IMG/VR virus record: IMGVR_UViG_3300020169_000085
Location: 1 to 27,798 of that record
Source: a virus
DNA: 27,798 nt
Reading direction: 5' to 3' (one strand)
Both the position numbers and the translations under genes were made by a program. Below are positions 12,646-27,435 of this stretch, piece after piece. A model generated the notes under the pieces. The model was not told the origin of the DNA. It saw only the letters and a list, made by a program, of their open reading frames with translations, and did not search any database. Every line of letters begins with the position of its first letter. Positions within the stretch are counted from its first letter, which is position 1.

Positions 12646-14199
12646 ATGGAATACAATAATCCAAGTGAGATTGTTAAAACTCTCACATTCGGGAAAGACG
12701 CAAATGATCAAATTATAGCAGGTGTCGAAAAGTTAGCTAACGCAGTGAAGTCCACATTAGGAGCTTCCGGAAAATGCGTAATTTACGAAGATGCCTTAGG
12801 AAGACCGGTAATAACAAAAGACGGAGTAACCGTTGCAGAGAGCGTAGTCTTACTACATCCGGTCGAGAACATAGGAGCAACCCTTATAAAGCAAGCAGCT
12901 AGAAATACTGTAAGAGAAGCAGGAGACGGTACGACAACATCTACCGTCCTTGCTAATTCTCTTTTAAAGATTACAAACAAACATTTAGATGAAGAAAAAG
13001 TTAGAGAACTTAAAGCAGGCATTATTAGCGGTGCTAACAAAGTTAAAATATATCTTGATAAGACCAGTACTCCTGTTAAAGGCCAAATGCTACAAAACGT
13101 TGCTATCATTAGCTGCAATAATGACAAAGAGCTTGGGATCAAGATTGGAGAAGCTTATGAAAAAGTTGGAAAAAATGGAATTGTATTAATGGAAGAATCT
13201 GATACAAATGAAACTTACGTGGATTTTGTTGAAGGAGTACAATTTGATAGTGGATTAAAGTCAACGCATTTAATAACAGACAAAGACAAACACACAGCTG
13301 TTTTAGACGATCCTTACGTGCTTATTGTTTCATCCCCTATTCCTAACATAAGAAAAATACAAAGCGTCTTAGAACACGTTATAAAGAGTAAAAGAAGTTT
13401 ATTGATTGTAGCCGATATGGAACAACAACCATATGCTACATTGTTATCGAATAAAGTTAAAGGTAATATAAAAGTTAATATTGTTGATGTACCTGGTTTT
13501 GGTTTAACAAAGCAAGATACAATGGATGATTTAGCATTACTTACTGGAGCAATGATAATAAACGAGGAACTTGGTGATGATTTAGATTTAATAAACCCCG
13601 ATGTACTAGGTAGCGTTAAAAAAGCTGTTACAGATGAAAAATCAACAGTGCTTCAGATAGAGCAATCAATAGATGTAGCTCACAGAGTTGAAGAGGTTAC
13701 TAAAAGTATTGAAACAGAAACTAATCCATTCTTTAAGAAAAAGTTAGAGCAAAGACTGTCAATGTTAACTGGTAAAGTTGGTATTGTTTATGTTGGAGCA
13801 GATTCTGAAGTAGAGCTTAAAGAAAAGAAAGATAGAGTTGAAGATGCAATTCACGCAACTAAAGCTGCTTATAAAGAAGGTATTGTAGCAGGGGGAGGTA
13901 TTGCTTTATTGAATGCTGCTAATAACTTGAAGGCTAAGAATAAAGGAGAAGAGATATTGTTTGAAGCAATTAAATCACCTTACTATACTATACTAGACAA
14001 TGCTGGTATTATTGAAGTTAAAAAGCAAACAATAAAAAATAGAGGGATTGATGTTAAAACTGGCAAAGAAGTTAATATGATTAAAGCCGGTATTATAGAT
14101 CCTGTGTTAGTTACTAAGTCAGCTCTTAAAAACGCTGTAAGTGTTGTAACAACTATTGTGTCTGCAGATTGTGTAATTAGCAATAAAAGATTGATGTAA
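12646..14199 (+). CDS. groEL: GroEL-type chaperonin (Cpn60), phage-encoded
   Basis: This 517-aa protein is a group I chaperonin that should form a double-ring ATP-driven folding chamber in the host cytoplasm. All three domains are present without interruption. ATP-site motifs are kept: TLGASGK, TKDGVTVA with Asp59 (E. coli D52), AGDGTTTSTVLA with Asp94 (D87), VEDAIHAT with Asp400 (the hydrolytic D398), and AGGGIALL. In the apical domain NIR.......LE and PGFG are kept, but several hydrophobic substrate-binding positions are altered. It is about 30 residues shorter than E. coli GroEL, from a shortened loop in the second equatorial half and loss of the Gly-Gly-Met tail; it ends ISNKRLM. A groES gene follows with a TAATG overlap. 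The first 300 bases are more GC-rich than the rest. Virus-encoded chaperonins are known in aquatic phages. Confidence 0.96.
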   Translation: MEYNNPSEIVKTLTFGKDANDQIIAGVEKLANAVKSTLGASGKCVIYEDALGRPVITKDGVTVAESVVLLHPVENIGATLIKQAARNTVREAGDGTTTSTVLANSLLKITNKHLDEEKVRELKAGIISGANKVKIYLDKTSTPVKGQMLQNVAIISCNNDKELGIKIGEAYEKVGKNGIVLMEESDTNETYVDFVEGVQFDSGLKSTHLITDKDKHTAVLDDPYVLIVSSPIPNIRKIQSVLEHVIKSKRSLLIVADMEQQPYATLLSNKVKGNIKVNIVDVPGFGLTKQDTMDDLALLTGAMIINEELGDDLDLINPDVLGSVKKAVTDEKSTVLQIEQSIDVAHRVEEVTKSIETETNPFFKKKLEQRLSMLTGKVGIVYVGADSEVELKEKKDRVEDAIHATKAAYKEGIVAGGGIALLNAANNLKAKNKGEEILFEAIKSPYYTILDNAGIIEVKKQTIKNRGIDVKTGKEVNMIKAGIIDPVLVTKSALKNAVSVVTTIVSADCVISNKRLM

Positions 14200-14456
14200 T
14201 GAAAGCGATCAATTATTATATAATTATAGAAAAAATCAAAGAAGCTCCAAAGAAAGTAGGAGGCATTGAATTAACTGAAAAGCAAGATACAGACATTAGA
14301 TATTTAAAAGCTAATGTAATAAGTGTAGGAGACAAGATAGAAGGTATTAATGAAGGAGATATTATCAGGTATGATAAGCATGCTGGTCATGGTATCGAAT
14401 GGAAAGATAATTTTTATTATGTTATTACAGTTGGAGATGTAGTTATAGTTGAATGA
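14199..14456 (+). CDS. groES: GroES-type co-chaperonin (Cpn10)
   Basis: This 85-aa protein is the lid partner of the chaperonin encoded just upstream. The Cpn10 barrel can be followed by eye: YYIIIEKI as the first strand, a mobile loop with GGIEL at residues 21-25 (GGIVL in E. coli), ANVISVGD (GEVLAVGN), INEGDIIRYDK (VKVGDIVIFND) and FYYVITVGDVVIVE as the closing strands. It is about 12 residues shorter than E. coli GroES, mainly because the roof hairpin is reduced. The hydrophobic tripeptide that docks on GroEL is I-E-L, with a charged middle residue. Its TAATG overlap with groEL and ATGA overlap with the next gene point to coupled translation. The identification is strong, although identity to bacterial GroES looks low. 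Confidence 0.92.
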   Translation: MKAINYYIIIEKIKEAPKKVGGIELTEKQDTDIRYLKANVISVGDKIEGINEGDIIRYDKHAGHGIEWKDNFYYVITVGDVVIVE

Positions 14457-14893
14457 GACTAACAGCTTCAGATCTTAGAGATATAAATTTATTAAAGTAT
14501 TACAGGCTCGTTAGAAGGTGGGCCTGTAAAACTTATGGATTGAAAGACGCTGATTTAGAATTACTTGTGTATTTAGATTGCAAACAATTTTTTACTCGTA
14601 ATGATTTTATAAACGGCGTTTACACTTATACTTGGGATAAAAATAGATGGGAGCGTTTACGTAGAAACGGTTGGATCGATGTTTTTAAAGAGCGTAATAG
14701 AACGAGTTCTAAATACGCAGTATATAAAGTATCTACGAAAGGTAAGCATTTAATAAGTAGAATATATAGAATACTATTAGCAGAAGAAGATTTACCTACA
14801 TCGGCAAGAAGTGTATTTTATAATAATAAAACATATACAGATAAAGTTTTTAATAAAGCTATTGATGATATGATAAGAGATAAAGAGAGATAA
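14453..14893 (+). CDS. Predicted winged-helix DNA-binding protein
   Basis: This 146-aa protein has the layout of a MarR/PadR-like winged helix. Helices LLKYYRLVRRWACKTYGL and LELLVYLDC lead into FTRNDF, then WDKNRWERLRRNGWIDVF as the likely recognition helix and turn. A basic wing follows (KERNRTSSKYAVYKVSTKGK), with a closing helix LISRIYRILLAEE. This is the arrangement of a transcription regulator, though phage proteins of this fold can also serve in virion assembly or packaging. It overlaps groES by four bases (ATGA) and the metalloprotein gene by one. A late-gene regulator is possible. The fold is inferred from pattern, not from clear homology. Confidence 0.5.
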   Translation: MRLTASDLRDINLLKYYRLVRRWACKTYGLKDADLELLVYLDCKQFFTRNDFINGVYTYTWDKNRWERLRRNGWIDVFKERNRTSSKYAVYKVSTKGKHLISRIYRILLAEEDLPTSARSVFYNNKTYTDKVFNKAIDDMIRDKER

Positions 14894-15273
14894 TGGATTT
14901 TAAACTTAAAGATTTTGCAGATCTTGTCGGAATAGACAAAGAAACTTCTACATATAATACACCTGTTTTTAAAAAAGATTTAGATGGAGATATATTAGGT
15001 GAAGCTAATAATGATGGTACTATATTTATAGACAAGTCATTGAAAGGTAAAGCAAAAGAAGAAGCTGTAAATCACGAAAAAGTTCATTTAGATCAAATGG
15101 CTCAAGGAAGATTGCACTATGATGACAACAAGGTAACTTGGAAAATGGATACAAAGTCGCCAGCTAGAGTTTATAAAAGAGTAGGTGGACAACTAATAGA
15201 CGAAGAAACAGGTAAGTCAGCGCAAGAAGGCGGGGATTTTGAATGGGAAAGAGAAGCATATAAAAAACAGTAA
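14893..15273 (+). CDS. Small HExxH zinc-metalloprotein (predicted peptidase)
   Basis: This 126-aa protein contains HEKVH at about residues 57-61 within EEAVNHEKVHLDQMAQGRL, the HExxH zinc site of metallopeptidases. A C-terminal FEWEREAYKKQ offers a Glu as possible third ligand, giving a minimal zincin-like core. The N-terminal part (TYNTPVFKKDLDGDILGEAN, GTIFIDKSLKGK) probably supplies the edge strand and first helix. I know similar short proteins from Bacteroidota and marine phages, where the substrate is unknown. There is no signal peptide or cell-wall-binding repeat, so an endolysin role is not supported; head maturation protease or virion-associated protease are possible. It shares a TAATG with the winged-helix gene. 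Confidence 0.55.
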   Translation: MDFKLKDFADLVGIDKETSTYNTPVFKKDLDGDILGEANNDGTIFIDKSLKGKAKEEAVNHEKVHLDQMAQGRLHYDDNKVTWKMDTKSPARVYKRVGGQLIDEETGKSAQEGGDFEWEREAYKKQ

Positions 15274-15274
15274 T

Positions 15275-15481
15275 ATGGGATATAAAGCAAAATCAATTAC
15301 AGCTAAAGCGTCAAGTGCTTGTAAAATGAATATGGGATTAGTTATGGGTGCAAGCGATATGCATAATTCTAAATCCTTTGTTGATCATGGGGCTTTAATT
15401 GAAAAAAGAATACAAAGCGGAAAAGCAAAACCCGTTACACCTGAAGAACAAGAAAAAAAAACTAACATAACAGAAGAATAA
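15275..15481 (+). CDS. Small basic unknown protein
   Basis: This 68-aa protein begins MGYKAKSITAKASSACKMNM and ends in a charged tail (TPEEQEKKTNITEE). The start at 15275 was chosen because it lies one base after the stop of the metalloprotein gene, like many junctions here; an ATG 36 bases upstream in the same frame would run inside that gene. Its KAKSITAKA and KMNMG segments recall the tagged basic proteins that follow, so it may be a distant member of that set. Function is unknown. Confidence 0.55.
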   Translation: MGYKAKSITAKASSACKMNMGLVMGASDMHNSKSFVDHGALIEKRIQSGKAKPVTPEEQEKKTNITEE

Positions 15482-15482
15482 T

Positions 15483-16352
15483 ATGAACTTACCAATCACA
15501 AGTAGAGTAAAAAGATCTCCCCTGTTAAGCCAAGCGTCTCAAGCTATAGAGGTTGAGAATGACGATCAAGCTAAAGGCTTTTATGAAAGTCAAGGAGAAG
15601 ATGTAAAATCCACTAAAACAGTAACCCAAGAGCCTACTGAAACTTTCACGGGGACAAAAGCAACAGGAGAAGCAGAAAAAAAATGGGCAAAACAAAATGA
15701 ATACTGTAAAGGTAAACCCGTGGGTACACCTGGTTGTTCTGGTTTTCATAAATTCGAAGGAACTGGAACCGTAGTAGAGGAGACGGTTGTTAAAGGGAAA
15801 AAAGAAATGGGTGAAGTTCCAATAAGAGTAGCTCAAAAAGGAGACGTAATGGAGCCTTGGCAAATTTCTAGAATGCAAAGATCCATAAAGAAAGAACAAA
15901 AGCAAATTAGAAAATCTAAACTTAAACAAAGACCAGACGGTGTTAGTAGAAGAGATTGGAAGAGGCAGGTTAGAGCAGAAGAAAATGCTGCTGAACAAAA
16001 AGAGTTTCAAGCTTTAGCAGATAGAAACGCTAAATCAAGAGCTTCCGGTAAAAGAGGAGGATCAAGAGATGTAGCTGGTTTTGATAGAGCTAAAACCGTT
16101 GGAGAAGATAGTGAAAAAGTGCAAGTGACTAAAGCTCAAAAAGCAGCTGAGCTAGCCGCTAACAAAAATAAAAAAGAAGAAAAGAAAAAATCACCAAACG
16201 AAATGAGATCAACAAGCCCAGCAAAAAAAGCATTAAAAGGTAGCCAAAATCAATTACCTCAGCATTTACAAGCAGCTATTAAAGCAGCTCCTGGTAAAAT
16301 GAACGGTTCTCCTTACAAAATGAAAGGCTCAATGTTTAAAAAGAGATACTAA
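15483..16352 (+). CDS. Basic protein with N-terminal PITSRVK motif (family member 1)
   Basis: This 289-aa protein is very rich in Lys, Arg, Glu and Gln and begins NLPITSRVKRSP. The same opening recurs in two genes downstream. Residues about 75-95 contain YCKGKPVGTPGCSGFHKFEG, the only part that looks folded. Long charged helices follow (QISRMQRSIKKEQKQIRKSK). The C-terminal third is disordered, with STSPAKKAL and the ending APGKMNGSPYKMKGSMFKK. No enzyme motif is visible. It could be an internal virion protein or a DNA-binding or condensing protein, since SPAKK-like motifs occur in histone-like tails; this is inference. It starts one base after the preceding stop and shares a TAATG with the next gene. 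Confidence 0.6.
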   Translation: MNLPITSRVKRSPLLSQASQAIEVENDDQAKGFYESQGEDVKSTKTVTQEPTETFTGTKATGEAEKKWAKQNEYCKGKPVGTPGCSGFHKFEGTGTVVEETVVKGKKEMGEVPIRVAQKGDVMEPWQISRMQRSIKKEQKQIRKSKLKQRPDGVSRRDWKRQVRAEENAAEQKEFQALADRNAKSRASGKRGGSRDVAGFDRAKTVGEDSEKVQVTKAQKAAELAANKNKKEEKKKSPNEMRSTSPAKKALKGSQNQLPQHLQAAIKAAPGKMNGSPYKMKGSMFKKRY

Positions 16353-16666
16353 TGGCTATACCAATTACAAGTAAAATAAAAAACTGCTCGCCTGCTAAGA
16401 AAACAGGAGCATGGACAAGGAAAGAGGGGCAATCGGAATCTGGAGGTTTAAACCAAAAAGGTGTTGATGATTATAAAAGAAAAAATCCTGGTTCAAAATT
16501 AAAGACCGCTGTAACAACAAAGCCATCTAAATTGAAGCCTGGTAGTAAAGCCGCTAATCGTAGAAAATCTTTTTGTGCAAGAATGAGCGGGGTAAAAGGA
16601 CCAATGAAAAAACCAAATGGTAAACCTACAAGAAAGGCTTTAGCATTAAGAAAATGGAATTGCTAA
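16352..16666 (+). CDS. Small basic phage protein, PITSKIK motif (family member 2), DUF6321-like
   Basis: This 104-aa, strongly basic protein begins AIPITSKIKNCSPAKKTGAW and continues WTRKEGQSESGGLNQKGVDD. It ends with a run that looks highly conserved from memory of other aquatic phages (ANRRKSFCARMSGVKGPMKK, then RKALALRKWNC). I associate this latter part with the uncharacterised DUF6321 family, an assignment I cannot check here. Three Cys (NCS, FCA, WNC-end) are notable for so basic a protein. A virion-internal or DNA-bound role would fit the charge. It overlaps both neighbours by one base (TAATG). Confidence 0.65.
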   Translation: MAIPITSKIKNCSPAKKTGAWTRKEGQSESGGLNQKGVDDYKRKNPGSKLKTAVTTKPSKLKPGSKAANRRKSFCARMSGVKGPMKKPNGKPTRKALALRKWNC

Positions 16667-16821
16667 TGGAATCAAAAGGACTAGGCGATACGGTAGAAAA
16701 AATAACTAAAGCAACAGGAATCAAGACTTTAGTAGAAAAAGTTTCAGAGGGTTTAAACATCCCGTGCGGGTGCCAGCACAGAAAAGAAAAACTAAATAAA
16801 ATGTTACCATACAAAAAATAA
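16666..16821 (+). CDS. 51-aa protein with CGC motif
   Basis: A short gene begins inside the stop of the previous one (TAATG) and codes for MESKGLGDTVEKITKATGIK followed by TLVEKVSEGLNIPCGCQHRK and the ending EKLNKMLPYKK. The plan, GLGD.(V/I)EKITKATGIK, then a CGC, then RKE.LN and FPYK or similar, is one I recognise from many small proteins of Bacteroidota phages, which supports it being real despite its size. It is probably two short helices joined by a Cys-turn that could bind metal as a dimer. Function is unknown. It lies between members of the PITSKIK-tagged family. Confidence 0.7.
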   Translation: MESKGLGDTVEKITKATGIKTLVEKVSEGLNIPCGCQHRKEKLNKMLPYKK

Positions 16822-16827
16822 AAAAAA

Positions 16828-17889
16828 ATGAGTTTCAAAAACACACCAATAACGGCGAAAATTAAAAGAACTACTAAAGGAGGTATTACACAACCATTAC
16901 TTAACGTAGGAGCTCCTATTAAAATGAAGATGTCTTCACCTGCTAAGCAAACAGTTGCTGACCCTGAACTTACTAAAAAAATGGACAATTTTAGAAATGA
17001 AATGTCTAGACAAGACAAAGTAAAAGCCGACAACTTAGCTGCAAGCAAAGCAAAGAAAGCTGCGAAAGATAAATCTAATTATCAAAAGAACATGGATCAA
17101 TATAGAAAAGATGTATCTACTTTAAATGCAAATACAAAAGCTGCATCTAAAAATGTTAATCCTAGACAAATGGATTCCGCTATGAATAGAAGCGTAAGAC
17201 AGGCAGGTAGGATTAAATCTTTTGAAAAGAATCTTTACGACTACGATACAAAAAACAAAGCAGGTAGCACTGAAGGTTATACTGCTAAAGAATATGCAAT
17301 GGCTAAAGCCAGTGGTACTTATAAATCTAGAGCTAAGAAAAAAGAAGACGTTAAAGTAGACACTACCAAAACTCAAGCCACTAAAACTAAAAAAGTTTCA
17401 TACGATACTGCTTATAAAAATAGGGATCAAAAAACATACGGTAAGATGGACAAAGCTACTTATATAAAAGAAGCTAAACGTCAAAACGCTTCATATAAGG
17501 CCGGTAAAGGATGGGATGTTAAAAACAAAGGTAAAGATACACCACCTAGAAAAAAGGTTAAAACAGCTTCTGTAATAGAACCTAAAGGAATTAAAAAAAT
17601 AGAAATATCTACAAAGTTAGATCCAAAACAACTTAAAGCAGAAGTTGTAAAGCGTAACACTAAAACAGAAAAGCCTTCTAAAAGAGACGTACGTAAAGCT
17701 AATAGAAAAGCTAAATCAGCAGGTAGAGCAAGTGATAGAGCAGCAAGAGCTAGACTAAAAGGCCAACAAGCTTTAGAGAATGGTAACAAGCAAAAAGCTT
17801 TAAGACTTAAAAGAAAAGAAACACGATTAAAAGCAAAAGCTACTAGAAAAAGAGGACAAGCAGCAGATGCTATTAAGATAAAAGATTAA
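16828..17889 (+). CDS. Very basic Lys-rich protein with PITAKIK motif (family member 3)
   Basis: This 353-aa protein starts MSFKNTPITAKIKRTTKGG and soon reaches IKMKMSSPAKQT, repeating the two hallmarks of the two genes before it. The rest is dominated by Lys, Arg, Ala, Asp and Thr, with long charged helices (KMDNFRNEMSRQDKVKADN). The C-terminal 80 residues resemble a histone-like or nucleic-acid-coating tail (DVRKANRKAKSAGRASDRAA, RLKRKETRLKAKATRKRGQ). No Cys and no enzyme motif occur. An internal head protein or genome-condensing protein is the most natural guess. A 6-base A-rich gap follows the CGC gene, and the holin-like gene starts directly after the stop. Confidence 0.6.
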   Translation: MSFKNTPITAKIKRTTKGGITQPLLNVGAPIKMKMSSPAKQTVADPELTKKMDNFRNEMSRQDKVKADNLAASKAKKAAKDKSNYQKNMDQYRKDVSTLNANTKAASKNVNPRQMDSAMNRSVRQAGRIKSFEKNLYDYDTKNKAGSTEGYTAKEYAMAKASGTYKSRAKKKEDVKVDTTKTQATKTKKVSYDTAYKNRDQKTYGKMDKATYIKEAKRQNASYKAGKGWDVKNKGKDTPPRKKVKTASVIEPKGIKKIEISTKLDPKQLKAEVVKRNTKTEKPSKRDVRKANRKAKSAGRASDRAARARLKGQQALENGNKQKALRLKRKETRLKAKATRKRGQAADAIKIKD

Positions 17890-18285
17890 ATGAAAAAGTT
17901 ATTTCAATGGCTTACAGGTAGTGTTGTTAAAGAAATTGGCAGCGCTATTGATAAGTTAACTACAACTGAAGAAGAGAAGCTTACTATTAAAAAGCAAGTT
18001 ATAGAAATACTAGAACAAGCCGATACAAATGCTCAAGCTCAAGTAACAGATCGTTGGAAGTCAGATATGGAAAGTGACAGTTTCTTGTCTAAAAATATCC
18101 GGCCAATTATACTCATATATATAACGGTTATATTTACAGCGTTGGCATTTACTGATGGTAACATTGGAGAGTTTCAAATAGCAAAAGAGTATATACCTAT
18201 ATTTCAAACATTATTAGTTACTGTTTACGGAGCTTATTTTGTAGGAAGAACTTGGGAAAAAGCAACAAAAATAAATAAAAAATAA
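17890..18285 (+). CDS. Holin-like membrane protein (3TM holin/GTA type)
   Basis: This 131-aa protein resembles the Holin_3TMs group first noted for gene-transfer agents and common in Flavobacteriia phages. An amphipathic start (KKLFQWLTGSVVKEIGSAID) leads into a helical Gln/Glu-rich part, then the hallmark DRWKSDMESDSFLSKNIRP at residues 54-72. Two hydrophobic segments follow, at about 72-88 (PIILIYITVIFTALAFT) and 102-118 (IPIFQTLLVTVYGAYFV), and a basic tail. The N-terminal amphipathic segment may be the third membrane element. Its job would be to open the inner membrane at lysis. No endolysin is recognisable beside it, so lysis genes may be split. Confidence 0.72.
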   Translation: MKKLFQWLTGSVVKEIGSAIDKLTTTEEEKLTIKKQVIEILEQADTNAQAQVTDRWKSDMESDSFLSKNIRPIILIYITVIFTALAFTDGNIGEFQIAKEYIPIFQTLLVTVYGAYFVGRTWEKATKINKK

Positions 18286-19114: not shown

Positions 19115-19319
19115 AAAGATAAGTATTGGTAAAGACTACAAAAATGATGCCATGCACTACTCTGTTGGACAGGAAGTGTATGGTGGTCATACCATAAAAA
19201 ATATAATTGAAGAAGATACTAAGTACTCAATATATATAGAAAAGAATAACGAGATAATGCCATGGAAAGATTTTAATAAGAATATGGCAATTGCAGTAGA
19301 ATATGACTTGCAATATTAA
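19098..19319 (+). CDS. Small unknown protein, MNQIVRKISIG family
   Basis: This 73-aa protein begins MNQIVRKISIGKDYKNDAMH and includes YSVGQEVYGGHTIKNI and EIMPWKDFNKNMAIAVEYDL. I recall similar proteins opening at the same Met in aquatic phages, so the start at 19098 is preferred over an in-frame ATG at 19053, which would add 15 residues overlapping the coiled-coil gene. The chain alternates short strands and turns, suggesting a small beta-rich fold. The gene overlaps its upstream neighbour by 17 bases and shares a TAATG with the Cpn10-like gene. Function is unknown. Confidence 0.6.
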   Translation: MNQIVRKISIGKDYKNDAMHYSVGQEVYGGHTIKNIIEEDTKYSIYIEKNNEIMPWKDFNKNMAIAVEYDLQY

Positions 19320-19909
19320 TGAAGTCATTAATTAATTTTATCATAGAGCCTATAGGCGAAAGATATAACAATGTAAAGAATATTGAAGGCAACGAATTAT
19401 TGTTAAATACAGAATTACAAAATCATAATTATTCAAATAGAATAGCCAAGGTTATATCCGTACCTAAATTATCAGATACTGATATAAAAGAAGGTGATCA
19501 AGTAATAGTGCATCACAATGTATTTAGACGTTTTAGAGACATTAGAGGTGACGAAAAAAATAGTAGATCTTACTATAAAGACAATATATACTTTGCAACT
19601 GAAGATCAGGTTTACGCTTACAAAAGAAAAAGCAACTGGCAAAGCTGTAAAGGATTTAATTTCGTAAAACCTATAAAAGAAACAAAATCATTTTCATTAG
19701 ATAAAGAGAAAGAAGGTGTTGGCGTTTTATACTTCAAAGATCCTGAACTAAAAGGATTAAAAGACGGAGATCTAGTCGGGTTTAGACCTGGGGCAGAATA
19801 TGAATTTGTAATCGGTAACGATAGAATTTATAGAGTACCCACAAATTCAATCACAATTAAATATGAATATCAAGGAAACGAAGAAGAGTATAATCCAAGC
19901 TGGGCATAG
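19319..19909 (+). CDS. Two-module Cpn10-like (GroES-like) protein
   Basis: This 196-aa protein appears to hold two GroES-like barrels. In the first, NFIIEPIG is the opening strand, the stretch to GNELLLN is a mobile-loop equivalent with an LLL tripeptide, and AKVISVP, IKEGDQVIVHHN and NIYFATEDQVYAYK match GEVLAVG, VKVGDIVIFND and EVLIMSESDILAIV of E. coli GroES. A second, shorter unit from about residue 125 gives GVGVLYFKD, LKDGDLVGFRPG and DRIYRVPTNSITIKY in the same order. Tandem Cpn10 domains are known in plant chloroplast Cpn20, and phages such as T4 make their own co-chaperonin (gp31) for capsid folding. Its position next to the packaging and head genes fits such a job. The homology is by pattern only. 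It overlaps the next gene by 47 bases. Confidence 0.6.
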   Translation: MKSLINFIIEPIGERYNNVKNIEGNELLLNTELQNHNYSNRIAKVISVPKLSDTDIKEGDQVIVHHNVFRRFRDIRGDEKNSRSYYKDNIYFATEDQVYAYKRKSNWQSCKGFNFVKPIKETKSFSLDKEKEGVGVLYFKDPELKGLKDGDLVGFRPGAEYEFVIGNDRIYRVPTNSITIKYEYQGNEEEYNPSWA

Positions 19910-20138
19910 AGCGGTTGAAGAACTTATAAAAGTTGCCAAAGAATCTATTGTAGATTCAGAAGATGATCTTGCTGCAGACAAGCTTAAAAACGCAGCGGCT
20001 ACAAAAAAGCTAGCTATATTTGATGCTTTTGAAATCCTTACTAGGATACAACTTGAACAAGATATTCTTGACGAAAAACCAGCAGAAATTAAAGAAGAAA
20101 AATCTTTTAAAGGATTCGCTGAAAAAAGATCTAAGTAA
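19863..20138 (+). CDS. Probable terminase small subunit
   Basis: This 91-aa protein is mostly helical: NIKETKKSIIQAGHRAVEEL, DLAADKLKNAAATKKLAIFD, then FEILTRIQLEQDIL and a charged tail. It lies directly before the large terminase with a TAATG overlap, the usual place for a small subunit, which would bind the packaging site and stimulate the large subunit. A helix-turn-helix is not clear, and the protein is shorter than many small terminases. Its start lies inside the Cpn10-like gene, 47 bases before that gene stops. The assignment rests mainly on gene order and on memory of similar proteins at this place in marine phages. Confidence 0.6.
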   Translation: MNIKETKKSIIQAGHRAVEELIKVAKESIVDSEDDLAADKLKNAAATKKLAIFDAFEILTRIQLEQDILDEKPAEIKEEKSFKGFAEKRSK

Positions 20139-22351
20139 TGTACGAACAAACATTATATAAGATTGTAACTCCTGTAAAGCTTACTACAATATCAAGACTC
20201 AACAAAGCTAAAAAATGGGAGTATGGTTATAACAAAGAACACGACATCGTTGTTATAAGTAAGACTGGGCAAATTGGTGAAATATACAATATACAGAACT
20301 TAAAAATAGCTTTACCAAAAGCACCGCCTAGTGTAGATAAATCAAATAAAAAATGGACACCTGAAGAATACCCTAAAGAATTAAAATCAATTGAAAGTAT
20401 ATTCGATTGGAGGGATTATCCAGAGTCATTTAAGCTAAAATGGGAAAGTTATATAGATGAACAATTTAACAAAAGAGAAAACGGTCACTGGTTCAATAAT
20501 AAGGGCTTGGATACTTACATTACTGGTACTCACTTTATGTACTTGCAGTGGTCCAAGATTGATGTTGGGCAGCCAGATTTTAGGGAATCAAACAGATTAT
20601 TCTACATCTTCTGGGAAGCTTGTAAAGCAGACACCCGTTGTTATGGAATGTCATATCTCAAGAATAGACGTTCAGGCTTTTCATTCATGGCGTCTGGGGA
20701 AACGGTTAATATGGCAACAATATCGTCCGACTCACGCTTTGGGATTTTGTCCAAATCTGGAGCCGATGCTAAGAAAATGTTCACAGATAAGGTTGTACCC
20801 ATTAGTGTTAACTACCCGTTTTTCTTTAAACCGATCCAGGACGGTATGGACAGGCCAAAGACGGAACTTGCCTACAGGGTCCCCGCATCAAAGCTTACTC
20901 GTAAGTCCATCACCAAAGCCGTTAGGCCCGAGACCCTTGACGGTCTTGATACCACCGTCGATTGGAAAAACACCGGTGATAACGCATACGATGGAGAAAA
21001 ACTAAAACTACTAGTACATGATGAAAGTGGCAAGTGGGAGAAACCGAATAATATATTAAATAACTGGCGAGTTACAAAAACGTGTTTAAGATTAGGTTCT
21101 AGAATTATTGGAAAATGTATGATGGGTTCAACCTCAAATGCATTAGATAAAGGAGGAGACAATTTTAAAAAACTATATAACAATTCAGATGTTATTAAAA
21201 GAAATAGGAATGGCCAAACCGCTTCAGGTTTATATTCTTTGTTTATTCCTATGGAATGGAATTATGAAGGATTTATTGATGAGTATGGGCATCCTGTATT
21301 TAATACCCCTAAAGAACCTGTACTAGGCCCATACGGCGACGTTATAGACATCGGGGTTATAGAGCACTGGAATAATGAGGCAGAAGGATTAAAGTCCGAC
21401 CAGGACGCTCTAAATGAATTTTATAGACAATTTCCTAGAACAGAAGAACACGCTTTTAGGGATGAAACAAAAAATAGTATATTTAATTTAGTTAAAATAT
21501 ACGAACAAATAGATTACAACGAAGATTTAGGTAATACAAATGTATTAACAAGAGGAAGCTTTCAATGGGTAAATGGAATAAAAGATTCTACGGTGAAATT
21601 TTCACCTAATCCATCTGGAAGATTTTTAGTATCTTGGGTTCCCGGGGAGCACTTACAAAATAAACAAGTTGTTAATAAAGGATTGAAAGCCCCAGGTAAT
21701 GATCATATGGGCGCATTTGGTTGTGATAGTTATGATATATCAGGAACAACAGATGGGCACGGATCTAAAGGAGCTTTACACGGTTTGACAAAATTCAGTT
21801 TAGAAGACGCTCCAGCTAATACGTTCTTTTTAGAATATATAGCTAGGCCACAAACCGCAGAGATATTTTTTGAAGATGTATTAATGGCTTGTATATTTTA
21901 TGGAATGCCTTTATTATGTGAAAACAATAAACCTAGATTATTGTATTATTTTAAAAGAAGAGGATACAGAGGGTATTCAATGAATAGACCTGACAAAGTG
22001 TGGAACAAATTATCTGTAACTGAAAGAGAAATTGGTGGAATGCCTAACTCTAGTGAAGATATAAAACAAGCACACGCGGCAGCTATCGAAACATATATAG
22101 ACAAACACGTAGGTTTACGTGAAGATGGTCAGTACGGTGCAATGTATTTTAATACTACTTTAAATGATTGGGCTGGTTTTGATATAAATAAAAGAACAAA
22201 GTTTGATGCAGCTATAAGTTCTGGCTTAGCTATAATGGCTTGTAATAGACATTTATATTATCCCAGACCTCAAGTACAAAAAGAAACAATAAGTTTAAAA
22301 ATAGCTAAATACACCAACCAAGGTGGTTTATCAAAATTAATAGAAAAATAA
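20138..22351 (+). CDS. terL: Terminase large subunit
   Basis: This 737-aa protein is the ATP-driven packaging motor and genome-cutting nuclease. The ATPase half has a deviant Walker A, KNRRSGFS at residues 175-182, which lines up with the K.AR.G.S form of lambda gpA rather than a classical GK(S/T). Walker B is KLLVHDESGKW with Asp295-Glu296, and a coupling motif follows at MMGSTSN around residue 330. The C-terminal nuclease begins near residue 527 with GCDSYDIS (Asp530, Asp533), with further acidic residues in LLCENNKP and after EREIGGMPN. A stretch from about 20560 to 20990 is far richer in GC than the rest and uses codons such as CCC, ACC and GTC. The nearest downstream gene is the portal, as usual. 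Confidence 0.9.
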   Translation: MYEQTLYKIVTPVKLTTISRLNKAKKWEYGYNKEHDIVVISKTGQIGEIYNIQNLKIALPKAPPSVDKSNKKWTPEEYPKELKSIESIFDWRDYPESFKLKWESYIDEQFNKRENGHWFNNKGLDTYITGTHFMYLQWSKIDVGQPDFRESNRLFYIFWEACKADTRCYGMSYLKNRRSGFSFMASGETVNMATISSDSRFGILSKSGADAKKMFTDKVVPISVNYPFFFKPIQDGMDRPKTELAYRVPASKLTRKSITKAVRPETLDGLDTTVDWKNTGDNAYDGEKLKLLVHDESGKWEKPNNILNNWRVTKTCLRLGSRIIGKCMMGSTSNALDKGGDNFKKLYNNSDVIKRNRNGQTASGLYSLFIPMEWNYEGFIDEYGHPVFNTPKEPVLGPYGDVIDIGVIEHWNNEAEGLKSDQDALNEFYRQFPRTEEHAFRDETKNSIFNLVKIYEQIDYNEDLGNTNVLTRGSFQWVNGIKDSTVKFSPNPSGRFLVSWVPGEHLQNKQVVNKGLKAPGNDHMGAFGCDSYDISGTTDGHGSKGALHGLTKFSLEDAPANTFFLEYIARPQTAEIFFEDVLMACIFYGMPLLCENNKPRLLYYFKRRGYRGYSMNRPDKVWNKLSVTEREIGGMPNSSEDIKQAHAAAIETYIDKHVGLREDGQYGAMYFNTTLNDWAGFDINKRTKFDAAISSGLAIMACNRHLYYPRPQVQKETISLKIAKYTNQGGLSKLIEK

Positions 22352-22355
22352 AAAT

Positions 22356-24788
22356 ATGGCTGAGTCAGTTATAACAAGTTATTTTCCAAGCCAAGTAGCT
22401 AGCGATGCGGAGAAGATGTCCATGGATTATGGTACTACTGTAGGTAGAGCTATAGAAAGTGAGTGGTTCAATAATACCAATGGAGGTAATAGCAGTAGGT
22501 TTCAAAGCAACCAAGTTACTTTTCACAATTTAAGATTATACGCTAGAGGCGAACAACCTATACAAAAATATAAAGATGAGTTATCTATAAACGGTGATTT
22601 ATCTTATTTGAATTTGGATTGGAAACCTGTGCCTATTATACCTAAATTTGTAGATATAGTAGTTAACGGTATTTCTGATAGATTATTTGATATAAGAGCT
22701 TATTCACAGGATCCTTATGGGGTGGATAAACGTACAAGATACATGGAGTCTTTAATAAGAGACATGCAAACTAAAGAGCTTAATGAATTTGCTTCTGCTG
22801 AGTTTGGTGTTAACTTATTTGAAAATGATCCTGAAACATTACCTAAAAATAAAGAAGAGTTAGATCTTCACATGCAACTTACTTATAAACAACAAGTTGA
22901 GATTGCAGAAGAGCAAGCAATCAAAGTCTTATTAGATGGTAATAATTATGACTTAATAAAAAGACGTTGTAATTATGATTTAACCACTATAGGTATTGGT
23001 GCTGTAAAAAATGTTTTTACAAAATCAGAAGGAGCTAAAGTAGAATATGTGGACCCTGTTAACTTAGTTTGGTCATATACAGATTCACCTTACTTTGACG
23101 ATATATATTATGTAGGAGAAGTAAGATCAGTACACTTAAATGAACTTAAAAAAGAATTCCCTTGGCTTACCAATGAGGAATTAAAAGATATTGCTGGGCA
23201 GTCAGTTAGTAACAACGGTTTTTACAATAGATCTATTAGTAACGTAAATCAAGATGATTCTAATACAGTACAGGTATTGTATTTTAATTACAAAACATTT
23301 ACTAATGAAGTTTATAAAGTAAAAGAAACCGCAACTGGAGCAGCAAAAATAATACCTAAAGATGATCAATTCAATCCGCCACCTGAATTATATGAAGAGT
23401 ATGGTATTGAAAAGTTATCTAAATCTCTTGAAGTATTATACGAGGGAGTAAAGATTGTTGGGGGAAGAATGCTTAAATGGGAACTTGCTAAAAATATGAT
23501 TAGACCAAAGAGTGATTACTCTAAAGTCAAAATGAATTATAGCATGGTTGCTCCTAGAATGTATCGAGGTAGAATAGAATCTATAGTAAGTCGTATAACG
23601 GGATTTGCAGATATGATTCAATTAACTCATTTAAAACTACAGCAAGTAATGTCAAGAATGGTTCCAGACGGAGTTTACCTTGATGCTGATGGTTTAGCTG
23701 AGGTTGATTTAGGTAACGGTACAAATTACAATCCGCAAGAAGCACTTAATATGTTTTTTCAAACAGGTTCTGTAATAGGTAGATCATTTACACAAGACGG
23801 CGATATGAATCCTGGCAAAGTTCCTATTCAAGAAATAACTACAGGAGCTGGAGGAGGTAAAATGCAATCACTAATTGGTAATTACAATTACTACATGCAA
23901 ATGATTCGTGACGTAACCGGATTGAATGAAGCTAGAGATGGAAGTACTCCTGATTCTAGAGCATTAGTTGGCGTGCAAAAAATGGCAGCAGCAAATTCAA
24001 ATGTAGCAACAAGGCATATATTAGATGGAAGTTTGTTTTTAACATCGGACTTATGTGAAGGGTTATCATTAAGAATTTCAGATATATTAGAATATTCTCC
24101 AACAAGAGAAGCTTTTATACATAAAATAGGTAATCAAAATGTAGCTGTATTAGAAGAAATGAAAGATTTGTATCTTTATGATTTTGGTATATTTATTGAG
24201 TTACAACCAGACGAAGAAGAAAGAGCTGTGTTAGAAAACAATATACAAGCAGCTGTACAAAGTGGATTAATTGATTTATCAGATGCTATTGATCTTAGAG
24301 AAATTAAAAATCTTAAGTTGGCTAATCAATTATTAAAAATAAGAAGAATAGACAAACAGAAGAAAGACCAAGAAATACAACAACAAAATATACAAGCTCA
24401 AGCCCAAGCTAATGCACAAGCGCAGCAAGTAGCAGCTCAAGCAGAGGTTCAAAAGGGTCAGGCTTTAATACAACAAAAAATAGAGTTAGCAAACGCTCAA
24501 GCTCAAATTGATACACAAAAACTAATGCAAGAAGCTACTTTAAAGAAAGAGCTAATGCAATTAGAATTTGAAATGAATTTACAGCTTAAAGGTTTAGAGG
24601 TTCAAGGTCGTAAGTCTGAGATAGTAGATAAAGAAGATAGAAAAGACGACAGAACTAAATTACAAGCTACACAACAAAGTGAATTAATACAACAAAGACA
24701 AAATAATTTGCCAGCACAAGACTTCGAGTCAAGTGGGTTCGATACAATGGGCGGTGGATTTAACTTAGGTTCGTCAGACCCTAGGTAA
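22356..24788 (+). CDS. Portal protein
   Basis: This 810-aa protein should form the dodecameric ring at one head vertex through which DNA enters. Its size, the position right after the large terminase, and features such as IPKFVDIVVNGISDRLF near residue 105, ESIVSRITGFADMIQLTHLK near residue 407 and VTGLNEARDGSTPD near residue 520 are typical of the portals of aquatic phages. The C-terminal 150 residues are a long, Gln- and Ala-rich coiled coil (QQQNIQAQAQANAQAQQVAA) that probably forms the crown or barrel reaching into the head. It ends in a Gly-rich tail. A short A-rich gap precedes the start. Confidence 0.85.
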   Translation: MAESVITSYFPSQVASDAEKMSMDYGTTVGRAIESEWFNNTNGGNSSRFQSNQVTFHNLRLYARGEQPIQKYKDELSINGDLSYLNLDWKPVPIIPKFVDIVVNGISDRLFDIRAYSQDPYGVDKRTRYMESLIRDMQTKELNEFASAEFGVNLFENDPETLPKNKEELDLHMQLTYKQQVEIAEEQAIKVLLDGNNYDLIKRRCNYDLTTIGIGAVKNVFTKSEGAKVEYVDPVNLVWSYTDSPYFDDIYYVGEVRSVHLNELKKEFPWLTNEELKDIAGQSVSNNGFYNRSISNVNQDDSNTVQVLYFNYKTFTNEVYKVKETATGAAKIIPKDDQFNPPPELYEEYGIEKLSKSLEVLYEGVKIVGGRMLKWELAKNMIRPKSDYSKVKMNYSMVAPRMYRGRIESIVSRITGFADMIQLTHLKLQQVMSRMVPDGVYLDADGLAEVDLGNGTNYNPQEALNMFFQTGSVIGRSFTQDGDMNPGKVPIQEITTGAGGGKMQSLIGNYNYYMQMIRDVTGLNEARDGSTPDSRALVGVQKMAAANSNVATRHILDGSLFLTSDLCEGLSLRISDILEYSPTREAFIHKIGNQNVAVLEEMKDLYLYDFGIFIELQPDEEERAVLENNIQAAVQSGLIDLSDAIDLREIKNLKLANQLLKIRRIDKQKKDQEIQQQNIQAQAQANAQAQQVAAQAEVQKGQALIQQKIELANAQAQIDTQKLMQEATLKKELMQLEFEMNLQLKGLEVQGRKSEIVDKEDRKDDRTKLQATQQSELIQQRQNNLPAQDFESSGFDTMGGGFNLGSSDPR

Positions 24789-24820: not shown

Positions 24821-25984
24821 ATGTCAGAAGAATTAGAACAAGAAGTACCTACCGTTGAGGAAGTCAAGGTAGAAGAACCTAAACCTGTGTCAGTTGACGA
24901 CGGGGTTATTAAGGTTGACTTAGGATTATTAAACAAACCAGAAACTGATGCCATTCCAGAGCAAGAAACAAATGCAGTGGATGATGATCAACCGGCCGCA
25001 ATTAGCGAAGAAGTGGTTGAAGAAATACCACAACAACAAGAGCCCGTTCAAGATGAACAACCCGTTCTTGAAGAAATAGTAAACGAAGAAGTAGCTGAAC
25101 AAGTTGAAGAACTTAACGAACAAGTTGAGCAAGCTATAGTTGAAGCGGATGCTGGTATTGCATTACCGGATAATATTCAAAAAGTGGTTGAGTTTATGAA
25201 TGAGACTGGGGGGAGTTTACAAGATTACGTAAAACTTAACACCGATTATGCTTCATTGAATGAAACACAACTACTAAGAGAATTTTATGAAACTACTAAA
25301 CCTCATTTAGATAGGGAAGAAATTGATTTTATAATGGAAGACAATTTTTCTTACGACGAAGAGGTTGATGAAGATAGAGACATTCGAAGAAAAAAGTTAG
25401 CTAGAAAAGAAGAGCTAGCAAAAGCTAAAAATCACTTAGATGGATTAAAATCTAGGTATTACGAAGAAATAAAAGCTGGGTCTAATTTAAACCCAGAAAC
25501 AAAAAAAGCGGTTGACTTTTTCAATCGTTATAAAAAAGAAAACGAAGAAGCGAGTAAAGTAGCTGAAAACCAAGTATCTGTATTTAACAGTAAAACAGAA
25601 AAGCTTTTTTCCAATGATTTCAAAGGTTTTGATTTCAATGTTGGTGAAAAGAAATTTCGTTACAGAGTTAAAAATGCGGATCAGGTTAAAGACACTCAAG
25701 GCGATATCAATAATTTTGTCAAGAAGTTCTTGAACGATAAAAATGAAATGAGCGACGCCGCGGGATATCACAAGTCTTTATTTACAGCTATGAATGCAGA
25801 CGCAATTGCAAATCACTTTTATGAGCAAGGTAAAACCGATGCTATGAAAGCAAGTGTACAAAAATCGAAGAATATTGATATGGACCCAAGGGGTGTTCAT
25901 GAAAACGTCAAGCCGACTTCGGGAATGTCATTTAAGTCAATTAAGTCTGGTGGAACTTCTAAGTTTGGAATAAGAAAAAAATAA
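24821..25984 (+). CDS. Scaffold-like head assembly protein
   Basis: This 387-aa protein sits between portal and major capsid protein, the usual place of a scaffold. The first 130 residues are extremely acidic and disordered (VPTVEEVKVEEPKPVSVDDG, NEEVAEQVEELNEQVEQAIV). A helical middle part with strong charge follows (DIRRKKLARKEELAKAKNHL). The C-terminal part ends with a basic tail (MSFKSIKSGGTSKFGIRKK), as expected for a segment that binds the inner face of the capsid. An acidic N-terminus with a basic C-terminus is common in scaffolds. The identification rests on position and composition; no protease motif is seen. Confidence 0.65.
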   Translation: MSEELEQEVPTVEEVKVEEPKPVSVDDGVIKVDLGLLNKPETDAIPEQETNAVDDDQPAAISEEVVEEIPQQQEPVQDEQPVLEEIVNEEVAEQVEELNEQVEQAIVEADAGIALPDNIQKVVEFMNETGGSLQDYVKLNTDYASLNETQLLREFYETTKPHLDREEIDFIMEDNFSYDEEVDEDRDIRRKKLARKEELAKAKNHLDGLKSRYYEEIKAGSNLNPETKKAVDFFNRYKKENEEASKVAENQVSVFNSKTEKLFSNDFKGFDFNVGEKKFRYRVKNADQVKDTQGDINNFVKKFLNDKNEMSDAAGYHKSLFTAMNADAIANHFYEQGKTDAMKASVQKSKNIDMDPRGVHENVKPTSGMSFKSIKSGGTSKFGIRKK

Positions 25985-26013: not shown

Positions 26014-27435
26014 ATGGCCGGATCATTTACAGGGAGTACTGGAGCATTAGCTCACTTAACTCCTCGACCAACACAAACGTTGTTTAACGACAACTACCTG
26101 TCTTTATCAGACATGGATTTTACACAACAATTCTTACCAGAAGTATATGAGAAAGAAGTAGAAAGATACGGAAACCGTACTATCTCTGGATTCTTACGTA
26201 TGGTAGGAGCAGAAATGCCTATGGCTTCAGACGTAGTAGTATGGTCTGAGCAAGGTAGATTACACGCAGCTTATGACCCAGTAGAAACTACAGCTACTAC
26301 AGTTATTATTCCAGCTAACGCAGCAGGAGCTTCTCAAAACGTTATTGGCCCAGGTGCTACTATCGTTATTGCTTCAGCAAACGGTTTAGTTGTGGAAAAA
26401 GCTTATGTATCTGCAGTATCTGCACCAGTGGCGGGAGTTGTTACATTAACTGTAGCTGGATATCAAGGAGCTATTACTGTTCACGCAGCAGCTAAGGTAT
26501 TCGTATACGGTTCTGAATATGCAAAAGGGACTTCTAATGCAGGAACTTCTGTTGATGCATCTTTCGAGCAATTTAGTAACAAACCAATTATCTTAAGAGA
26601 TAAGTACAATGTGAACGGTTCTGATACCGCTCAAATTGGATGGGTTGAAGTAACTACTGAAGCTGGTACTTCTGGATACTTATGGTATTTAAAATCTGAG
26701 CACGAAGCTAGAATTCGTTTTGAAGATCAATTAGAAATGAGTATGCTAGAGGCTGAAAAAGCAGCGTCACCAATTACGCCAGCTGACTTTGGAACTTCAG
26801 CAGGAACTCAACTTACTGGTTCTGACGGATTATTCTCAGCTCTAGAAGATAGAGGATTAGTTTATTCAGATCAAGATTTTGGTGGTGCTGATGGACTTGC
26901 AGACTTTGACGTAATATTACAAGAATTAGATAAGCAAGGATCTATTGAAGAGAACATGATGTTCTTAAACAGATCAGCTTCTTTAGGGCTAGATAATATG
27001 TTAGCATCTGTTAATTCAGCTTACAGCACAGGATCTTCTTATGGAGTATTTAATAACAGCTCTGAAATGGCATTGAACTTAGGGTTCTCTGGATTCAGAA
27101 GAGGTTCTTACGATTTCTATAAGACTGACTGGAAATACTTAAACGACGCTACTACTCGTGGATTAGTTGGAGATATTGAAGGTGTATTAGTACCAGCAGG
27201 AACTTCTACAGTTTACGACCAGCAATTAGGACAGAACATTTCAAGACCATTCTTACACGTACGTTACAGAGCTTCTGAAGCAGACGATAGAAAAATGAAA
27301 TCTTGGATCACTGGATCTGTTGGTGGAAACTTTACAAGCGACGAGGATGCAATGAACGTTCACTTCTTATCAGAAAGATGTTTATGTGTACAAGCAGCTA
27401 ATAACTTTGTGTTATTCAAAAAAATAGCAGCATAG
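26014..27435 (+). CDS. Major capsid protein
   Basis: This 473-aa protein is the likely main shell protein. It follows terminase, portal and scaffold in the standard order and has a composition typical of capsid proteins, with one Cys pair late (CLCVQAANNFVLF). The N-terminal part (TLFNDNYLSLSDMDFTQQFL, then GNRTISGFLRMVGAEMPM) resembles capsid proteins I know from marine phage contigs. Residues about 85-160 form a Val/Ala-rich beta insert. Codon use shifts toward CGT for Arg and GCT/GGT in places, in contrast to the AGA-dominated neighbours, as expected for a highly expressed gene. A strong hairpin lies 16 bases after the stop. No prohead cleavage site is obvious. Confidence 0.82.
   Translation: MAGSFTGSTGALAHLTPRPTQTLFNDNYLSLSDMDFTQQFLPEVYEKEVERYGNRTISGFLRMVGAEMPMASDVVVWSEQGRLHAAYDPVETTATTVIIPANAAGASQNVIGPGATIVIASANGLVVEKAYVSAVSAPVAGVVTLTVAGYQGAITVHAAAKVFVYGSEYAKGTSNAGTSVDASFEQFSNKPIILRDKYNVNGSDTAQIGWVEVTTEAGTSGYLWYLKSEHEARIRFEDQLEMSMLEAEKAASPITPADFGTSAGTQLTGSDGLFSALEDRGLVYSDQDFGGADGLADFDVILQELDKQGSIEENMMFLNRSASLGLDNMLASVNSAYSTGSSYGVFNNSSEMALNLGFSGFRRGSYDFYKTDWKYLNDATTRGLVGDIEGVLVPAGTSTVYDQQLGQNISRPFLHVRYRASEADDRKMKSWITGSVGGNFTSDEDAMNVHFLSERCLCVQAANNFVLFKKIAA

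Follow-up and report, generated by a model that had tools for sequence, protein, structure and literature searches.

To our knowledge, outside the T4 lineage, and leaving aside the giant phages with their propeptide-based ejection proteins, little is known of how tailed phages choose the proteins that are packed into their heads. In T4, a short N-terminus, the capsid-targeting sequence (CTS), with the consensus MK-x-[FY]-x-x-[FY]-[IL]-x-E (MKxYxEFIAE), is common to the unrelated basic internal proteins IPI, IPII and IPIII of a single genome, IPII and IPIII both starting with MKTYQEFIAE. Ten residues of this sequence are enough to bring a protein into the T4 head (PMC9026906). In the crassvirus phicrAss001, a podovirus infecting Bacteroidota, gp45, gp46 and RNA polymerase subunits, cargoes of 60-277 kDa, are located in the head and have been proposed to be ejected ahead of the DNA, and the available text of that report mentions no N-terminal tag shared by them (PMC10172136). 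Encapsulin cargo is loaded into an HK97-fold shell through a short terminal peptide (PMC8229669). Finally, the cyanomyovirus family gp114/T4-GC119 (DUF6321/phrog_727), whose members are mostly large multi-module proteins of 387-707 aa without any PIT tag (see below), is encoded, as at the locus described here, near the terminase gene.

This locus lies in IMG/VR record IMGVR_UViG_3300020169_000085, whose 27,798 nt, analysed as a whole, are hereafter called the window. Several basic proteins encoded there open with a motif of the type PITx[KR]xK (the PIT tag). As in T4, a short N-terminus is shared by several unrelated basic proteins of one genome, and the DUF6321 family, of which tagged protein B is a member, is found behind both T4-type CTS and PIT tags. 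The earlier statement that no system of this kind had been described was too strong, since the T4 capsid-targeting sequences provide one. Nevertheless, the PIT tag does not match the T4 consensus, the tagged proteins have no glutamate cleavage site, neither the S77 protease nor the Gp23 capsid was found in the tagged contigs searched, the motif can be internal, and the phage is a podovirus of a different capsid lineage. The likeness to the crassviruses lies in the head-stored proteins of a Bacteroidota-infecting podovirus; in contrast to those large cargoes, PIT-tagged proteins are basic and of 7-40 kDa, and PHROG and Pfam scans of the window named no gp45 or gp46 family. Encapsulin cargo-loading peptides differ from the tag both in sequence and in the shell that they serve.

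Genome context of the tagged genes

The window contains genes for GroEL/GroES, a holin, the terminase large subunit, the portal and a capsid candidate (Table 1). Its terminase is 62% identical to that of podovirus ctfjg026, 45% to those of the Flavobacterium elemo phages and 37% to those of Cellulophaga phi38:1 and phi18:3, and it has a weak match, over 27% of its length (E=9e-6), in the gut crAss-like phage cr10_1. A 57-kb contig (L210) has this tagged block too, its proteins being identical to those of the window or nearly so.

Table 1. Tagged block and morphogenesis genes of the window, with the evidence for each feature
Feature	Position	Strand	Evidence
126-aa HExxH protein, zincin-like	14893..15273	+	H61, E62, H65 and E119 invariant in 9 homologues
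68-aa protein, diverged tag SITAKAS, class D	15275..15481	+	PITSK/PITNK in homologues (L083, L293, L324, L331, L332)
Tagged protein A, 289 aa, pI 10.0, C-terminal LPQHLQAAIKAAPGK motif	15483..16352	+	homologue alignment
Tag PITSRVK, protein A residues 4-10	15492..15512	+	sequence
Tagged protein B, 104 aa, pI 10.9, Pfam DUF6321 body	16352..16666	+	PF19846, E=2.7e-22
Tag PITSKIK, protein B residues 4-10, followed by SPAKK	16361..16381	+	sequence
DUF6321 module, protein B residues 27-102	16430..16657	+	Pfam profile match
51-aa untagged protein (GLGD...PCGC...LNKMLPYKK)	16666..16821	+	position kept in relatives; phrog_32048, E=2e-5
Tagged protein C, 353 aa, pI 10.4, QPLLNVGAP and SPAKQ motifs	16828..17889	+	homologue alignment
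Tag PITAKIK, protein C residues 7-13	16846..16866	+	sequence
Holin-like protein, last gene of the tagged block	17890..18285	+	phrog_3427 holin, E=7e-27
Terminase large subunit	20138..22351	+	phrog_6681, E=1e-167
Portal protein	22356..24788	+	phrog_6547, E=4e-151
Acidic 387-aa protein between portal and capsid genes	24821..25984	+	pI 4.6, charge -32
Major capsid protein candidate	26014..27435	+	phrog_13704 virion structural protein, E=6e-100

Relatives that were examined have their tagged genes in one block, with the HExxH gene on one side and the holin gene on the other. They lie 2,050-12,555 bp upstream of the terminase gene (median 3.8 kb, mostly 2-5.5 kb), beyond which the portal gene and the genes of the scaffold and capsid candidates follow. 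From their positions, the acidic 387-aa protein is a scaffold candidate, which may be the receptor of the tag, and the product of 26014..27435 is a candidate for the capsid protein. The capsid, portal and scaffold candidates have a pI of 4.6-4.9, against about 10 for the tagged proteins.

Besides a full GroEL, the window encodes two GroES-like proteins (14199-14456 and 19319-19909), the second being a long variant whose gene is directly upstream of a small terminase candidate. In the untagged phages phi38:1 (L160:6618-6893) and elemo (L162:6030-6299), genes upstream of the terminase encode small basic phrog_6437 proteins with 33-34% lysine plus arginine, that of phi38:1 being annotated as a structural protein; these proteins may do the same job as the tagged ones.

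A common N-terminus on dissimilar basic bodies

The pattern PIT[SA][KR][IV]K opens three genes, at 15483-16352 (MNLPITSRVKRSP), 16352-16666 (MAIPITSKIKNCSPAKK) and 16828-17889 (MSFKNTPITAKIKRTT), whose products A, B and C carry SPAKK, SPAKK and SPAKQ, respectively. These three proteins, their coordinates and their shared motifs had been reported in the original prediction and all proved to be real; a fourth member with a diverged tag, encoded at 15275-15481 and opening with MGYKAKSITAKASSACK, had been missed. At the position of the tag, homologues of this 68-aa protein read MGSKPITNKASSACK and MTYKARPITSKACSPYK, the SITAKASSACK of the window standing against PITNKASSACK or PITSKACSPYK. One genome thus bears the shared N-terminus on several unrelated proteins (three strict and one diverged), and up to four tagged proteins per contig are found among relatives.

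The slightly wider pattern P[IV]T[SA][KR][IV]K has three matches in the 9,015 residues of the 30 window proteins, all of them inside residues 4-13, where 1e-5 would be expected by chance. A chance origin of the shared N-terminus was ruled out by shuffling within these 30 proteins, none of 20,000 shuffles giving a tag-bearing N-terminus. As had been claimed, the proteins are unlike outside their motifs: once the first 18 residues are removed, the best mutual BLASTP match of the four bodies, in a four-sequence database, has E=0.07, which is no significant similarity.

The basic character of the bodies was likewise confirmed, with net charges of +26, +23 and +61 for A, B and C, and a pI of about 10 is found in nearly all of 53 tagged proteins tested. 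SPAK is roughly twenty-fold enriched in the tagged set (18 against 0.9 expected, with a maximum of 5 in 500 shuffles), and SPxK occurs 50 times against 7.8 in shuffles, the units counted being SPAK and SPxK. In the AlphaFold model of protein A (mean pLDDT 54, mostly of low confidence) there is one confident helical hairpin, at about 125-187, and the tag region has low confidence, which is what a short linear motif located in a flexible tail should give.

Protein B scores 79.6 bits against PF19846 (curated cut-off 28.5) and also matches phrog_4689 (E=7e-30) and phrog_727 (E=3e-21). Comparison of DUF6321 with solved structures returned matches at chance level only, and neither DUF6321 nor the tag motif strings were named in the literature searched. 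Protein C has relatives at 58 viral loci and none among 84,980 cellular genomes, and no homologue of A or C was found in sequenced phage records. For classes A, C and E, defined below, no usable match came from scans against Pfam, NCBIfam and PHROG.

Spread of the tag and selection on the peptide

A DNA-pattern scan of viral contigs, homology scans and a frame-by-frame survey of open reading frames (ORFs) detected the motif, no more than about ten residues from a Met, in 114 distinct ORFs. This is a regular-expression count, from which a few chance matches were removed by eye, about 108 being convincing; the common short N-terminus on unrelated basic bodies, first noticed in three proteins, is thereby extended to this larger set. 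The DNA-pattern scan also caught T4 gp23-like proteins with MQSQPITAKTKK (L175, L184, L199), which were judged to be internal stretches of capsid genes where a Met occurs by chance and were left out.

The tagged proteins fall into at least five body classes, with only rough counts per class because the assignment was made by keyword: A, resembling 15483; B, the DUF6321 proteins; C, resembling 16828 and bearing PLLNxGAP; D, small and resembling 15275; and E, which has a hydrophobic glycine-rich segment (LDIAGLVPGVGEIADG) and is absent from the window. Among contigs with at least 6 kb of sequence upstream of a terminase at least 78% identical to that of the window, 49 of 52 have a tagged gene, a proportion inflated because many contigs were fetched with a tagged-protein query and some entered twice; with contigs fetched by the terminase alone, at the same identity, it is 7 of 10. 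The tag becomes rare at 70-77% terminase identity (3/24) and below 70% (1/7), and it was absent from the region read in the cultured phages phi38:1, phi18:3, elemo and Gundel_1 and in the uncultured ctfjg026.

Within the ORFs, the motif is 63 times denser at N-termini than in the rest. In 56 tagged genes, proline is written with 4 codons, isoleucine with 3 and threonine with 4, and this synonymous variation rules out a leader acting at the regulatory or translational level. In class A and C homologue pairs with body identity below 60%, identity is 86-88% over the eight tag columns and 28-38% over the bodies; in the alignment of protein A, P4, I5, T6, R8, K10 and R11 are invariant in 8 homologues of 21-94% identity. 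The synonymous codon variation and the better conservation of the tag than of the bodies place the selection on the peptide, and the tag is therefore a selected protein motif.

The tagged proteins might also be rapidly diverging paralogues of one basic ancestor, in which the conserved N-terminus has a local role, in binding DNA or a partner, and is no address label. The genes are adjacent and co-oriented, all products are basic, and SPAK motifs and, at the C-terminus, a KK-x-YFK or LPxHLxxAI motif recur in several of them, as would be expected from such an origin. However, the bodies of one genome have no similarity to each other, and hundreds of phages have DUF6321 and PSAYAS bodies that lack the tag and start with other N-termini, so that the tag was joined to pre-existing bodies; common descent is accordingly an unlikely explanation.

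DUF6321 behind two kinds of N-terminus

The body of protein B was compared in 88 distinct DUF6321 proteins from fetched contigs. Most have neither type of tag. A T4-type opening (for instance MKTLKDFIAE, MITFKQFLEE, MKTFQEYLNE or MKITEIITES) is present in 24, as found with a loose regular expression and mostly on contigs that are fragments, the T4-like nature being shown only for L078 (S77, Gp23 and T4 portal), L054 (T4 portal) and L010 (gp17-like terminase); this opening is missing from the DUF6321 proteins of other T4-like viruses (L032, L041 and several isolates). None of the 24 is on a contig bearing marker genes of the window's clade, none of the 29 DUF6321 proteins of its podovirus clade has a T4-type opening, and the PIT tag on DUF6321 is confined to contigs with genes of that clade (L235 being marked by GroEL alone). 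The two openings thus segregate by viral lineage. The T4-type pattern matches 36 of 344 ORFs on the DUF6321 contigs, a rate biased upward because these contigs were chosen for a DUF6321 protein with that opening, against 4 of 324 on PIT-clade loci.

A second body appears to behave in the same way. A PIT-tagged 76-aa protein (L272:4865-5095) matches residues 252-307 of phrog_727 and the DUF6321 of the window matches residues 336-430, and both tagged bodies are therefore modules of a single family. The 252-307 module stands behind T4-type openings in 11 proteins (by a loose expression) and repeats the exchange of tags once, so that the same bodies take one or the other tag according to the virus. 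As to conservation of the motif in homologues, on which the original prediction was to stand or fall, the A and C families keep it, but 25 of the 29 podovirus-group DUF6321 proteins are without it, and therefore targeting cannot depend on the tag everywhere.

In two cultured cyanophages, DUF6321 proteins carry labels pointing to the virion: 'virion protein' for the one adjoining terL in S-SCSM1 and 'structural protein' for that of S-B43. In S-SCSM1, 45 virion proteins were detected by mass spectrometry, on which its label presumably rests. These labels are indirect hints of packaging. The comparison with internal head proteins made in the original prediction gains independent support from the DUF6321 body, which has the PIT tag in this podovirus clade and T4-type openings elsewhere.

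Taking into account these data, it is quite unlikely, and somewhat less probable than divergence from one ancestor, that the tagged proteins remain unpackaged and act in the infected cell, binding the host nucleoid or assisting takeover, the tag serving to bind a host factor or to give them their location. In favour of such a role, they are strongly basic and lysine-rich, and their SPAK motifs resemble the SPKK motifs that bind the DNA minor groove. Against this role, the genes are in a morphogenesis block beside holin, terminase and portal genes, DUF6321 is virion-labelled in cyanophages and carries T4-type head-targeting openings, and we know of no host signal resembling the PIT motif.

Processing of the N-terminus

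The tag had been proposed to be a targeting or a cleavage signal, and DUF6321 with PIT or T4-type N-termini speaks for the first of these. Cleavage is not supported by the sequences. A search of 10 tagged-clade contigs for the S77 protease (PF03420) found none, and neither an S78 (PF04586) nor a Clp-type (PF00574) protease was matched in 11, although any of these contigs may be incomplete; tagged N-termini have no T4-like glutamate at P1, and no conserved cleavage site follows the tag in the class A and C alignments. Moreover, in eight homologues of the 68-aa class D protein (L012:403-891, L009:1895-2539 and six others) the motif is internal, at residue 49-121, behind a fused conserved domain (FRGQASRLN...NFYGGEAYFQDGYGGDL).

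It is accordingly very improbable that the maturing head loses the tag as a propeptide, perhaps with the HExxH protein acting as a minigluzincin-like protease. This protein matched no Pfam family, but its HExxH and a later conserved Glu are invariant, its predicted fold is confident (AF2 pLDDT 84.8), its best PDB matches in Foldseek are the mini-metallopeptidases selecase, abylysin and IrrE, and in all relatives that were examined its gene stands in front of the tagged block, all of which leaves it a possible processing enzyme. On the other hand, these matches are weak (E 0.13-0.6), the gene is also present in the tagless relative L124, the motif is internal in the fused homologues, and the tag is followed by no conserved cleavage motif.

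Proposed function of the tag

A shared N-terminal motif, selected at the protein level, stands on unrelated basic bodies whose genes are in the morphogenesis half of the genome. We consider it reasonably probable that the PIT tag acts on basic cargo as a signal similar to capsid-targeting sequences, with a new type of sequence and in a lineage outside T4, its best support being the DUF6321 body, with the PIT tag here and apparent T4-type openings on other viral contigs. In such a mechanism, PITx[KR]xK would serve as a short linear targeting signal, which several phage proteins, unrelated but strongly basic, carry at a flexible N-terminus and which recruits them into the assembling head. It would bind the head core or scaffold, the acidic scaffold-like protein being the obvious candidate, and the tagged proteins would be packaged alongside the DNA and probably ejected with it, thus entering the host. 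Its mode of action would be like that of the T4 capsid-targeting sequence, with another sequence and no detectable prohead protease.

A broader proposal, which we put forward as possible rather than probable, is that a second, protease-independent capsid-targeting code has arisen in a podovirus lineage related to crAss phages. A transferable motif of seven residues, N-terminal or internal, would load changing basic cargo modules into the head, some of these modules being shared with T4-like phages behind T4-type sequences. If modules are exchanged in this way between two tag systems in different capsid lineages, head cargo would prove to be a common and modular pool of genes.

With a recognisable tag, one could tell from the sequence which proteins an abundant group of uncultured marine phages packages and probably injects. 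Packaged tagged proteins would be candidates for host takeover and counter-defence, and the tag itself could serve as a tool to load proteins into phage heads.

Other recurrent features

A hydrophobic glycine-rich segment (LDIAGLVPGVGEIADGANAAWYASEGDYKNAAL) without a family match is present in the tagged proteins L087:2864-3682, L083:7787-8299 and L181:1321-2007 and in L221. It resembles the pre-toxin segments of polymorphic toxins, and a role in crossing the membrane during ejection would fit these proteins.

T4-type N-termini (M[KR]..E[FI]..E) are found on many proteins per contig in L019, L047, L034, L074 and other DUF6321 contigs, with six or more each in L019 and L047, which suggests that such contigs encode a large set of internal head proteins. 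A further recurrent opening, MA[FY]K[MQ]..(C)SP or MAY[IVT]QNN(S)PF, occurs on DUF6321 and other proteins without the PIT tag (L012, L093, L008, L009, L084, L011, L014 and L105) and is possibly an alternative tag.
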